A DNA stretch of 64,000 nt from Ochromonas danica (lineage: Eukaryota; Sar; Chrysophyceae; Chromulinales; Chromulinaceae): the NCBI GenBank assembly GCA_015146655.1, contig VKHL01000114.1, positions 27,700-91,699 on the forward strand, given 5' to 3'. This document shows positions 34,317 through 42,737 of this stretch, piece after piece. The notes below the pieces were generated by a model that was given only the letters and a program-made list of their open reading frames with translations, was not told the DNA's origin and did no database searches. Position numbers and translations under genes: made by a program. Numbering within the stretch: position 1 is the first letter of the stretch; the number at the start of each line of letters is the position of its first letter.

Positions 34317-34555
34317 CCTCCTTCTATTTAGCTCTTTGTCTTTCTCTTTTCGTTGTCAAACATGCACAGGACCACAGAGAGCAAGATTATTACTACGCGC
34401 GGTAATAAACTCCATCAAACGCGTTTGTTTGCAAGCTCATTTTCGGATTTTCGTCCGATCTGTCATCTGATCAGGTCTGCAGGTATGATTGATTACTTTA
34501 TTGTACTGTAGACTTTAGAAAGAGAGAGAGAGAAAAGGAAAGACTAGTACGGAGA
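34317..34555. promoter_or_regulatory. Divergent promoter, MAD1/DIX-J
   Basis: 239 nt between two divergent ATGs. It includes ACGCGCGG and AACGCGTTTG (34395-34425), CG-rich words that stand out in the AT-rich context and could be cell-cycle-type control sites (MluI-box-like ACGCGT overlap). This role is inference only. Confidence 0.4.
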
Positions 34556-36053
34556 ATGTTAGCGTTATACTATTTTCAAGGTGAACTAGGAGAATCTTTG
34601 GATACTCCCAATGCATTTATGGTAAGAAAGGAATTTATTTTCATTTAATATGTTTTCTCATTTATTTTGGCTGATTGTTCTGATTCTGTTGTCTCTGTCA
34701 CTGTATTGACACTTCCTAACCTTCCTACACTTTCTTAGCTGCCTGGTAATAGTGGTAGTTCGATCACCTTGAAGCAATTTCTAGATGCTTTTCCATATCC
34801 CATTGATCGAAACAATACTTTCTTGCGTTTCCGAGTTCCAGATGAACAATTAGACTATGCTTGGTTAGATATCTCTGATCCTGCTGCATCACTTCCTGTC
34901 TATGAAGGAGTTATATTCGTGAAGATCTTGCGACTTGATCCTGCCGTGCAAGCCAAGCGAAAGCTATTTCTGCGAAGAAAAGCCGTGCAGCAGTCATCGG
35001 GAAGTGAGGAGAAGGTCAAGTTTGTTCGTCCTCCTCCCGCATCATCTGCTCCTCCAGTTTCCACTAGTAGTGCTACTCCAGCTGGTGCTTCTGTTAGTCA
35101 ATCTGGTGGAAGTGGAAAGATGAGTCCAGCAAACAGCAGCAGTGGCAGCAGAGCCAGTGCGCCTCCTATCAATGTCCCATCCACTTCCTCTGGCACTAAT
35201 AATGGCGTGGGTATTGCAGCGAATGGTAGTGGCATCTCTCCCAAGCCTTCTTCATCTTCTTCCAGACCACCTGCTCGGCCTTCTGTTTCTGTTCCACCTG
35301 CTGCCGCTGCCAAGGCTGTTCCCTCACTGTTGGATGATGATGATTTAATGAGCAGTCCTCTCCATGCTGGATCTCCCTCTGTTCCTTCTACAAATTCTGC
35401 CAAGATTTCCTCTTTTTCTCCAAAATCGAGCTTTCACAACAACTCCAGCAGTGTGAATGATATCGACGAAGGGCCTGCACGTCCCTATCCCTCTGCCACT
35501 TCTGCTTTCTCGAGTGGGTCAGCCATGCCTGAGTCTTCTCTGAATCGTGAAGAGTTGGCTGCAAAGAAGGATGAGGCTATCTCTGACAAAGTCAAAGCCG
35601 CATTAGATTTCAAGAAGGAGATGGACCTTAAAGCATTCAAAGAAAGAGAAGATTTCGATGCAGCCCGTGAGAAACATGACAAAGCATTAATCAATTGGGC
35701 AACAACGAATGGCGGAAAAGATAAGCGCAATGTGCGCACGTTACTATCCACTATGCATGTAAGCTCTCCCAACACTTATTGCTCTTGGTAAATGAGATTG
35801 ATTTATTCACTAATTTCCCTGCTTACATGGAATCTTGTAGAATGTTTTACCCCCAGGATCAAAATGGAAAGCGCTGGGGTTGGGTGATGTTTTGCAAGCT
35901 AGTGATGTTAAGAAGGCTTATCGCAAGGCAATGCTTGTTGTACATCCTGATCACACAGTGAGTTTGGATCCCGAATCTAAATTCATTTGCAAGCGAATTT
36001 TTGAAGCTCTTAATGAAGCTTATGACGACTTCTCCAAGAAAGAGAACCCTTGA
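34556..36053 (+). CDS. DIX domain-auxilin-type J domain fusion
   Basis: Exons 34556-34621, 34739-35758 and 35841-36053 give 432 residues. Residues 1-85 look like a DIX domain (LYYFQGELGESLDTPNAFM, then SSITLKQFLDAFP, FLRFRVPDEQLDYAWLDI, LPVYEGVIFVKILRLD), the head-to-tail polymerising domain of Dishevelled, Axin and plant SOSEKI. A Ser/Pro-rich linker follows. The C-terminus is an auxilin-type J domain: [45 protein letters not shown], with HPD at 397-399, and FICKRIFEALNEAYDDF. Auxilin J domains recruit Hsc70 to uncoat clathrin. The third-exon acceptor is fixed by phase and by the match to auxilin. No clathrin-box or PTEN domain is evident. The DIX call is moderate, the J call strong. Confidence 0.78.
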
Positions 36054-37874: not shown

Positions 37875-40800
37875 ATGATGAAAACTACTTCAGCCAATCG
37901 TACAACGAAGATGAAAGTTATTGAGAATGGTACTGTTGTCAAGACAGTTGCCAATGCTTCCATTAACTATGGACAAGACTTACAACAACTCAAGAAGATG
38001 ATTGAGCTTGCTATTCGATTAAGTCCACAAGATCCCATTTACACAGTGGACAAAGTTTGTGTGGAAATTGGGGATGGCAAATATAGTGAAATCGATCAAA
38101 ATGAACTAGTTCAAATACAGAACTCCCTTTTCAAAGTTGACCCTTCCAGTGCTACTTCCTTGGGTACTAAAGTGTCCCTCAAGGTATCTCATACCCTTAC
38201 CCTGTTGTAATGCCATGTCATGTCATTGCCAGTGAGTGTAACACTTTGTTTGACATGTTTTGGATGATAGGTTTATGTCACTCGACCTGCTGGTTCATCT
38301 ACTAACAGAGCTGTTAGTCGTATGAGAGAACGTGAAAATCGCGAAATCATCAACAACAACGAAAACAGCAAATATGACAATATTATGAGACCTTCCTCTC
38401 CCTGTAAGCCACTACTACTACTAGATCCATCTTACCACTACCCTTTATTATTAACTGTTCCTCCTCTGTTACCTAGTGAGTATGAAACGTAGCAGCACTC
38501 CAGGCAAAGCGAGAGCACAATCTCGTGGTCGCTTCTCTACAACCACACCAATGCGATCCTCTACTGCTGGTGCTAGTCATCTCCCTCGTGGCATGTCACC
38601 AATGCGTATGCCTAGAGACTCTACGGCGACCAATGCTTCTACTGAAGATCACAACAGTGTTCCTCCCAGTGCTACACCCAAAACATCTCGCAAACCTTTT
38701 ACCTCCTCTTCTTCTTCTAATGCAGAATCAGAAGTGATGGAGAACCTCATCGACCAAGACGATATGATGCCACCACCTTCTGCTTCAAAGTCTGGACGTA
38801 AACCACGTAGACTAACACAGATGGATATTGAAGAAGAAGAAAAGCGAAAAGTGTTACAGTCTATCAATCAGACTTGGGCTCAGGTTGATGAGCCAGAGGA
38901 AGTAGCAGCTGCTGCTGTTGCTGATCCTGCTTCTCCAGTGACAAAGTCCTTCTTGACACCTTTCGAGTACTACTCTCCCTTAGAGCGTAAGGGACCTGGT
39001 GGTGCTGTAGGGGTGGAGGATGATGATGATGACTATCAATCATGTGCTGGAGATCTTGGTGATGCTGATCTTCATCAAGATCATCCTCCACATCCTGATA
39101 CTCCTATGCATGACTCCTCTACCTGCGATGCTTCTGTTCATGTAGAGGAAGAGGAAGCGGTAGAAGAGGAAGAAGAAGAGAGTATGCAGGCTTCTAAAGT
39201 ACCTTTCAGCTCCCCTGAGAAGTCCTCCACAACTAGCCAACAAACTGCTACTAACACCTCCTCTACTGCTACCACTACTGCTACAACTACAACTACAACT
39301 ACCACAACGCCAAGCAAGAAAGTGATCACTAGCAAGTTGAACACTCAACCTACTAGTGCTGTGAAGAAAACTCCCAATAAGTCAAGAGCCTCTACCACTA
39401 CCAACAACAACACTGCCAATACTAATACTACCACAGATAATAGCAAGCCGTTGTTTGCTGAAGGTCGTACCTTAGCTGAAATGGGTGTTAACTTTGAGAC
39501 TTCGTTAAGATCTTATCGTACTAGTTCAGTACGTGGAGCTCCTTCATCTGCTAAGAAGAGAACTGGAGGAGGAGGAGGGGGGCATGGTGGTAATGGTAAT
39601 GGTAATGGTCATGAGTTATCTCCTGTGCGTAAGTCATCTAATCGTGATCCTGATGGCCGTCCTTCTATTGGTACTATTACAACTCAATGGGAATTTATGC
39701 GTACAGCCTTTGTGAATAATTCAGATGAAGAATTAGAATGGTTAATGATTTCTAAGAAAGCTGGTGCTTATAGTTATGCTCATCGTAAACATCAAGTTGC
39801 AGAAGATAAATACTTCAAAAGTCTCTATGAGATTGACTTCTATCAAGTACAAACAAAATATTTCTCTACTGGAATTGGTAGTAAATTACCAGTTTTATTA
39901 AAAGAATTAACAAGTTTCTATAGTCTTCTCATGGCAAATCCAAAAGATGAAATAGCAGCTGAAAATACATTAACAACACATAAGAAATTGAAAGAATTTT
40001 TTGAAATTCAAGGTGGATGTACTAAAATTCTGTCAGTTTTTCCAACAAAAATTGAACAACAAATTTCAGCTTTATTAATAGAAGATGATAAAATGCGTAT
40101 TGTTCGTAAAGCACGTGAAGCATCTGCTAGTATGATATCTGAAATTGCACAATTAAATCAAAAATATCAGACAGCTTTAAAAGAAAGTGAGATCTCATTA
40201 GAAAATATGGAAAAATGGGCCAAACGTGAAGTTGAAACAGATGAATATCCACGTATAATGCGTGAACAAGAAGAAGAATGGATGAATAAAGAATATGAAG
40301 ATAATATGTTAGCATTACAAACTATGAGATCCTATTTCCCTGACAATCTATTAGATATAACATTACAAGATTTCCAACAACTTGTACGCCAACAAGGTGG
40401 ATTAATTAGTTTAGAATTAGCTAATGAATTAAAACAAAATAAATTATTACATTGGTTAATTACACATCCAGATGATATAATTACTTCATCCTTCTTAACA
40501 GGTGATCGTAAAGCCTATTTTGAAAATATTGAAAATTTAGATATTATTGAATTACGTGCTATTTCTATGATATTACCAATTAAATTTGAATTAGATAATG
40601 ATGGTCGTAAAGCAGAATGGAGAACACGTTTTATGAATCGTGTGAAACAATTAGTAAGTCAAGCACGTGGTGAGAAAGTTAAAGGTGCATGGGATCCTAT
40701 TAAACAATGTCGAAATATGATTGATTTACCACCATTAAAACCTGAACAACAAAGACGTGCTATTTATTATTATCGTACAAAAGAAATCTCTGATATCAAA

Positions 40801-42737
40801 TTAAAACAATTTGATGATAAATTAGCATTATTAGCTAAAAAAGAAAAATTATTAAATCAAATTGAATTAGAAGTAAAAGAATGTAAAGAAGAATATGATA
40901 CAGTCTTAAAAGAAATGCGTGATGTTGATTTTATTGAACAATATGGTATTGATCAATTAGGACATGTGAAAGATTTAGCTAAAGAAGAATGGCAAGTTGC
41001 AGAAAAGAAACGTAAAACATTAGCAAATGAAGTAACACGTTTGAAAAAGAGTATTGAAGATGCTCCAATTACAAGAGATCATTTTATTGAAATGGAAGCT
41101 GAATTATGTCAATATTTGACAGAACGTGGTATTCCATGGGAAAGTAAAAATACTCCCGCTGAACAGGTTAGTATATTGAGCACTGATATATACACATATA
41201 CATGCACACTTGCACGTGCACACTTGCGCACGTGCATGTATATGTGCACATACACGTACACTTATACATATATACATGTACACAAATACACACACACATG
41301 CACACACTATGTGTATTACCACTAGCACTATACTATCATGGTTGTTACTTACCTATTGTTTCTATCTTGTGTATAGATTGTTGGTGTCTTTGACAGTGAG
41401 AAAGTATTACAAAAGAGAGTTCAAGCAGCTGCAAAGTTTGTCTCAGCTGAACAAGAAGCATTAGAAAGAAAGATGGAATTAACTGCTTTGAAAAGTCGTC
41501 CACCTCTTATCAACAACAATAGTGTTTCTTCTACTGCTTTGGATGAAATGGTTCCTTCTTCTACTAGTAGTGAAGGTAATGACATGCTATCATCTACCGC
41601 CAATACTTCTATTATTACTACCACTACTGCTGGAGATGTTGTCGTGAGTGGTAAGTGTCATCTCATCCCATTGCTAGCTTGCTTGCTTGTGAATGACAAT
41701 GATGATTGCCTTGTTTGACAGATCCTTTATTATGTCCTACTACCTCTTCTTCTACTCTTCTACTTGAAGATGGAGTAGTCGCAGCTATTGTTGCTGATAA
41801 TAACAACAACAATGCTAACAATGTTGACAATGCTAATGCCAACATGTCCTTCACATCTCCTCGCATGGAACGCAAGCAATCCATTTTGCTTTCTGCTAAT
41901 GCAGACATGCTCAATACGTTGAATAAGATGTTCTCTACCTTAGCATCACCAGGTGGTAGTACTAAAACGCCTATGATGAGAGCACGTACACCTTCTCGTC
42001 GTCTCTCTGTCGCTGTCACTGGCAGTTCTGCTATGGGAGGAACAACTTTGTTTTCACCAGACAAGCAACAACAATCATCACAATCATCATCAACTAGTGA
42101 TGGTCCTAAAGAAGTCAAGCAGTCTAAATCCAAGTTACTAAAGGTTAGTTTAGACTATGTTTTGATTGTCAATTGTCCACTAACTAATGATGATGATGAC
42201 GTCTGTTGTGATGATGAATAGAAACTATTGGGTGGATCAGGTCAAAAGGAAGACGTCTCACTATCTTCTACTGCACCTGCTAAACCAGCGCTTTCTTTCT
42301 TGGATCAACTCAAAGCACGAACAGGTTCATCCTCTTCTTCCTCATCATCGTCTATGGATGAAGATAATACCAACAACTCAACCACTGGCAAGCCTGCTTT
42401 GTCTTTCTTGGATCAGATCAAATCTCGTGGACTCAAGAAAACACAACCTGAGAATAACAACAATAGCAATGGCAATAGCAATGGCAATGGCAATGGCAAT
42501 GATTCTGATGCTGTCACTGTGACTGTATCATCTGATTTGCCTAAGCCGCCACCAGCGAAAAGCTTTCTGTCCTCCGTGCCCAAGCTATCCTTTCTCGATC
42601 AAATTCGAGCTCGTGTACGTGGTGAAGAAGTTGATTGCAAGCCACCGTCTCCCACTACCAGATTGACTATGACGGCCAATAACGACAATGCAATGTCTTT
42701 CTTGGAACAGATTAAAGCTCGTCGTAGACAAGAATAA
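37875..42737 (+). CDS. Large novel-domain protein with four WH2-like motifs
   Basis: Six exons (37875-38183, 38271-38403, 38477-41166, 41377-41650, 41722-42143, 42222-42737) give 1,447 residues. Residues 1-110 may be a ubiquitin-like/DCX-like fold (KVIENGTVV, then IYTVDKVCVEIGDGKYSEID), weakly. A Ser/Thr/Pro-rich, acidic region (about 115-510) precedes a 500-residue helical block (WEFMRTAFVNNSDEELEW to YLTERGIPWE) that I do not recognise. The tail has four copies of a short motif: SFLDQLKAR, SFLDQIKSRGLKK, SFLDQIRAR and SFLEQIKARR (about residues 1301, 1337, 1398, 1437). They fit the WH2 actin-monomer-binding consensus LLxxIRxGxxLKK, so an actin role is inferred. Phase is consistent at all five junctions. 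Not a formin: no FH2 signature. Confidence 0.7.
41200..41310. repeat. ACACAT/ACGTGC-rich tract in intron
   Basis: Alternating purine-pyrimidine sequence (CACACATG, TACACA, GTGCACAC) in the intron 41167-41376 of the WH2-like gene, with Z-DNA-like potential. Confidence 0.8.

Follow-up and report, generated by a model that had tools for sequence, protein, structure and literature searches.

A DARTAGNAN-type gene joining a DIX domain to an auxilin-class J domain, with a possible role in clathrin uncoating

The window (the whole stretch of DNA analysed, 64,000 nucleotides) carries on its forward strand a three-exon gene at 34556-36053. Its exons join in frame to encode 432 residues and a stop codon (Table 1), and the start codon at 34556 is the first in-frame ATG past a stop at 34490. 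The predicted protein consists of an N-terminal DIX domain, a low-complexity linker and a C-terminal auxilin-type J domain. The gene model is sound. A preliminary description of this DNA had given the same coordinates, the same HPD position (residues 397-399) and the same domain order, and all of these agree with the spliced frame.

Table 1. Features of the DIX-J gene, in positions of the window.
Feature	Position	Strand	Remarks
Exon 1	34556..34621	+	residues 1-22; start codon and first part of DIX domain; includes head-side D16-T17-P18-N19-A20
Intron 1	34622..34738	+	117 nt, GT..AG, phase 0
Exon 2	34739..35758	+	
Rest of DIX domain	34739..34936	+	residues 23-88 (Pfam match 5-85); tail-side Y62-x-W64-L65-D66
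W64 codon, tail side of DIX domain	34862-34864	+	
Linker, Ser/Pro/Ala-rich	34982..35542	+	residues 104-290; disorder assumed from composition only
Charged stretch and auxilin-specific RNVRTLLSTMH	35543..35758	+	residues 291-351 and 352-362; exon 2, ahead of J core
Intron 2	35759..35840	+	82 nt, GT..AG, phase 0
Exon 3	35841..36053	+	residues 363-432 and stop; J-domain core
HPD 397-399	35943-35951	+	in exon 3

Exon 2 is a single open frame (350 aa from stop to stop) that runs from DIX residue 23 to residue 362 of the auxilin segment. Because this one exon starts within the DIX domain and ends within the auxilin-specific segment of the J region, separate transcripts for the two domains are unlikely, and a split gene with the domains encoded by neighbours was rejected. 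The join of the exons is predicted from DNA. Each domain also continues across a phase-0 intron, and there is hardly any chance that two adjacent genes were mistaken for one. The surroundings of the DIX-J gene are ordinary. Upstream lies a gene for a checkpoint protein of MAD1 type (Pfam E 8.8e-31) and downstream are frames of mitochondrial carriers, all on the minus strand. A long open frame of 956 aa on the plus strand of the window (38455-41325) had no Pfam match at E ≤ 0.01.

When the J domain was searched against the PDB, the top five sequences were all auxilins, led by 1n4c (E 9.4e-17), and the next was Arabidopsis 3ag7 (E 7.4e-14), whereas the best J domain outside the auxilins reached only E 0.0058. 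Both the HPD motif and an auxilin-type segment ahead of the J core are present, and the generic J-domain profile PF00226 scored 27.8 bits, exactly its cut-off. Judged by these matches, the J domain is of the auxilin class and not generic, which bears out the auxilin resemblance first noticed at this C-terminus.

We looked for further auxilins in the same genome. PF00226 gave 54 matches at E ≤ 1, tallied exon by exon. A genome search with the C-terminal region of the window protein returned, beyond the gene's own two pieces, a best match at E 4.6e-5. Against the bovine auxilin J domain, the window gene scored 66.6 bits and the runner-up 25.3 bits among the frames of 43 other J-hit loci, a set that contains some duplicates and was drawn from the loci of 30 of the 54 PF00226 matches, five loci fetched by place and the loci of the C-terminal-region search. 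Nineteen of the 54 matches, one of them the window itself, had no locus of their own, and some of these fall inside fetched loci. The window gene thus holds the only clear auxilin-type J domain found in the searches made, which could miss auxilins split by introns. A J domain on contig C196 was rejected as a second auxilin because it is not auxilin-specific (E 0.2 for auxilin versus 0.063 for a generic J domain). The minus strand of that locus (L050) carries repeated PH-like segments, a WW-like stretch and the divergent J domain, the PH and WW labels being assigned by eye and not by Pfam, and it looks like a single multi-domain gene.

At the other end of the protein, positions 6-77 of the 77 in the Pfam DIX profile (PF00778) aligned with residues 5-85. 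With residues 1-103 as the query, the score was 21.8 bits (E 1.7e-4), 0.4 bit short of the cut-off of 22.2, and with the whole 432-residue protein it was 17.9 bits (E 0.0028). An unspliced search of the whole genome yielded a sole PF00778 match at E ≤ 0.001, on contig C25 (28 bits, above the cut-off), and none of 14 control genomes had a match at that threshold. The window gene itself is missing from these genome matches because intron 1 splits its DIX domain. The window DIX domain nevertheless found the one on C25 directly in a genome search (E 4.1e-10, 32% identity), and the reverse search, from C25 to the window, gave E 8.9e-6. Other weak DIX matches were two short ones on C188 (E 0.02, with the window DIX domain as the query) and one on C8 (E 0.55); their frames were inspected, with the match's own strand seen for just one of the C188 matches.

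Single-sequence searches of the PDB (phmmer) with either the window or the C25 DIX domain gave no DIX match at E ≤ 10. A two-sequence profile built from both gave four sequences at E ≤ 10: three Axin DIX domains at the top (E 0.21-0.36), then one designed protein (E 1.6). AlphaFold modelled the DIX region poorly (pLDDT 51.8), working with no relatives and from unspliced sequence that includes a 39-residue intron insert. With this model, Foldseek placed Axin and Dvl1 DIX domains at ranks 1-6 (best E 0.13) and 15 DIX chains among the best 50 of 571 matches, none of the 571 having E ≤ 0.001. This ranking is weak support for a DIX fold. The DIX domain that the preliminary description had seen at the N-terminus therefore holds by its Pfam match, marginal as that score is, and by its homology to C25; a predicted structure put DIX domains first, but with low model confidence and no significant match. 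Overall, we are highly confident in the identity of both domains.

The combination of the two is already in the literature. Kostareli et al. (mBio 2025, PMC12077222), in the parts of the paper available to us, sort 1,452 DIX candidates into eleven subclades. Four of these, the Musketeer proteins, are SAR-only: ATHOS (without a C-terminal domain), PORTHOS (kinase), ARAMIS (ELMO) and DARTAGNAN (DnaJ). They state that no earlier-characterised DIX protein has a DnaJ domain. The initial remark that no characterised protein has this pair is thus outdated, since DIX plus DnaJ defines DARTAGNAN, which was pulled down reciprocally with ATHOS in Phytophthora palmivora. By its architecture, the window gene is of DARTAGNAN type: it shares the N-terminal DIX domain, the low-complexity linker and the C-terminal DnaJ domain, in a host consistent with SAR, and we found no difference of architecture. 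The accessible text speaks of a DnaJ domain and likens it to GAK, whereas the domain here is auxilin-class. Our searches found no paper joining a DIX domain, a J domain and auxilin, nor one joining auxilin and DIX in Phytophthora.

With auxilin and GAK, the window protein has in common the auxilin-specific segment ahead of the J core and a J domain with HPD. A PTEN-like region is part of auxilin and GAK; the window protein differs from them in having a DIX domain where those proteins have kinase and PTEN-like regions, in a linker that lacks any canonical clathrin-binding motif, and in that a NAK-type kinase is encoded separately, on contig C4. It is like SOSEKI, Dishevelled and Axin in its DIX domain, with a SOSEKI4-like tail-side W-x-D, and unlike them in its added DnaJ domain.

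The linker (residues 104-290) contains no canonical clathrin box and no DPF/W, DLL, FxDxF or NPF motif, so that no direct tether to clathrin or AP-2 is visible. It does contain an acidic block, SLLDDDDLM. We considered the linker as a clathrin binder and rejected it: there is no canonical motif, and the loose form at LLDDDD was matched in 84 of 5000 shuffles. Its one DLM was matched in 125 of 5000 shuffles, and a motif LL..DDDL apparently common to the window and C25 linkers was not significant, its alignment score being equalled in 87 of 500 shuffles.

The C25 gene offers a candidate for the missing tether. Its DIX domain (C25:213750-213971, minus strand, locus L001) is followed by a 187-residue low-complexity tail, with no second Pfam domain, and we regard it as an ATHOS-like candidate partner. 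The homology of its DIX domain to that of the window is the likeness between the two proteins, whereas its tail has what the window protein lacks, namely two DPF motifs (2 of 5000 shuffles had as many); a single DLL was reached in 115 of 5000. DPF motifs are of the kind bound by AP-2 appendages, and the tail motifs suggest a tie to AP-2-type adaptors. The coat components themselves are encoded in the genome: C65 has clathrin heavy chain repeats (seven matches), and C26 and C1 have ears of alpha-adaptin type.

A further DIX-like protein may belong to the same set. One of four ELMO matches in the genome, on C126 (gene at C126:42964-44439, L044:661-2136), begins with a divergent, DIX-like stretch that contains W-L-D. 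Pfam recognises the ELMO domain (E 6.6e-29) and not the DIX, and we propose this gene as a candidate ARAMIS. Its linker had none of the clathrin- or AP-2-type motifs scanned for. The other three ELMO loci, viewed by eye over about 3.5 kb each, showed no DIX-like start, with distant first exons possible.

As its likeliest function, we propose that the window protein is an auxilin recruited through its DIX domain for Hsc70-driven uncoating of clathrin. The C-terminal J domain would stimulate Hsc70 via its HPD, and the N-terminal DIX domain would form head-to-tail stacks, both among its own copies and with those of other DIX proteins, above all the ATHOS-like C25 protein. The DPF motifs of the latter would supply the tether to AP-2 and clathrin coats. 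The co-polymer could then gather several J domains at clathrin-coated membranes and lead to Hsc70-dependent uncoating there, the DIX assembly doing what in animal auxilin and GAK is done by the regions that bind clathrin and membranes. The first suggestion from this DNA, that Hsc70 might be recruited on a DIX polymer, is a reasonable proposal. We infer polymerisation of the window protein, its recruitment by C25 and the uncoating step, and for the mechanism as a whole we see the case as evenly balanced.

In favour we counted the gene model, the DIX domain, the auxilin-class J domain, the W-x-D motif, the DPF motifs of C25, and the clathrin heavy chain and alpha-adaptin-type ears, together with the published ATHOS-DARTAGNAN pulldown (PMC12077222) and polymerisation of SAR DIX domains in vitro (PMC7042713), as far as these papers were available to us. 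Against it we counted the linker without canonical motifs, the DIX score under the cut-off, the changed interface residues and the poor model (pLDDT 51.8). ATHOS was, moreover, located near the ventral groove, and in the accessible text of PMC12077222 we found no placement of these Musketeer proteins at clathrin.

That location speaks for reading the protein as part of a polarity or flagellar-base scaffold, in which the DIX polymer would build an assembly for signalling, with Hsc70 recruited by the J domain to dismantle it rather than clathrin. ATHOS lies near the ventral groove and flagellar insertion of P. palmivora zoospores and co-purifies with DARTAGNAN (PMC12077222, in the parts available), and a linker free of canonical clathrin motifs would suit such a role. 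However, the J domain is auxilin-class and not generic, and it sits in a clathrin-bearing genome where the searches made found no other clear auxilin-type J domain. We consider this scaffold somewhat improbable. A stronger version of the uncoating mechanism strikes us as unlikely too: here the DARTAGNAN protein would be the sole auxilin of cells in this lineage, driven by DIX contacts with a DPF-bearing ATHOS on AP-2 and clathrin, and the dose of Hsc70 would be set by polymer length and not by direct binding to clathrin. If it were true, the polarity-type DIX polymer, in its SAR form, would be largely an endocytic device.

Both the scaffold and the uncoating mechanism call for a DIX domain that polymerises. 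The polymer contact of SOSEKI4, according to the sections of PMC7042713 (van Dop et al., Cell 2020) that we could consult, involves F81, W83, Y84 and D85 on the tail side and D33, H34, H36 and F37 on the head side, and a D85A change severely attenuates polymerisation. Matched by spacing and not from a structural alignment, the window protein keeps two of the four tail-side residues (W64 and D66, with F81 changed to Y62 and Y84 to L65) and one of the four on the head side (D33 as D16, with H34 changed to T17, H36 to N19 and F37 to A20). The three changed head-side residues, together with the marginal DIX score, would fit a plain auxilin whose DIX domain is a monomeric ubiquitin-like binding module, polymerisation playing no part. 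We think this quite unlikely, given that the tail-side W-x-D is kept in each of the three aligned proteins of the genome that have a DIX or DIX-like domain (window, C25 and C126) and that the SAR DIX domains assayed elsewhere do polymerise in vitro (PMC7042713, in the accessible sections).

Kostareli et al. describe GAK as a NAK kinase plus a DnaJ domain and offer the speculation that DARTAGNAN could join with PORTHOS to restore an activity of GAK type (PMC12077222, in the parts available), by DIX-DIX contact between the J protein and a DIX-bearing kinase. Both halves of GAK do occur here in separate genes. The one kinase of NAK type found, on C4 (L071, minus strand), matches GAK best in the PDB (E 1.8e-46), followed by AAK1 (2.8e-42), and the 370 residues of its tail that were examined contain four DPF motifs, a count reached in 0 of 5000 shuffles. 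However, no DIX domain was seen in the upstream frames listed, and the gene starts at or near the kinase domain, so this kinase does not fit the published idea. As far as found, the GAK-type kinase half does not seem to be DIX-linked in this genome; a second NAK-type kinase that does bear a DIX domain could be missed. We regard a rebuilt GAK as very unlikely. The PORTHOS kinase pattern CDFGSAT had no site in the genome. The looser CDFGS+ had eight, against three for its backward control, with loci L063 and L066 unread and L064 and L067 read only on the strand opposite the match; an APE-region pattern with one mismatch had one site against two for its control. On their own these patterns are near chance, so the C4 gene rests on a site of both patterns and on the PDB match to GAK.

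What this genome adds to the published family is the auxilin-class J domain, the tail-side W-x-D, an ATHOS-like gene whose product has two DPF motifs, a candidate ARAMIS and a GAK/AAK1-like kinase with no visible DIX domain. The recently described DARTAGNAN family is thereby extended to another genome, with a sharper assignment of its J domain. Together, the J domain, the DPF motifs of C25 and the DIX-less kinase would point SAR DIX proteins to clathrin traffic, besides the motility idea set out in the accessible text of PMC12077222.

The genome also has 47 light-harvesting matches. A PDB comparison of one of these proteins put long multi-copy LHCI chains of 9vfj, whose score is summed over copies, in the first seven rows, and XLH12, FCPI and VCPI proteins came after them. 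This is compatible with a red-lineage alga, the likeliest being a photosynthetic stramenopile, though it is no proof. Four light-harvesting matches of equal score, 2407 bases apart at C224:8673-16382, could be an array of recent tandem copies or a repeat introduced by the assembly.
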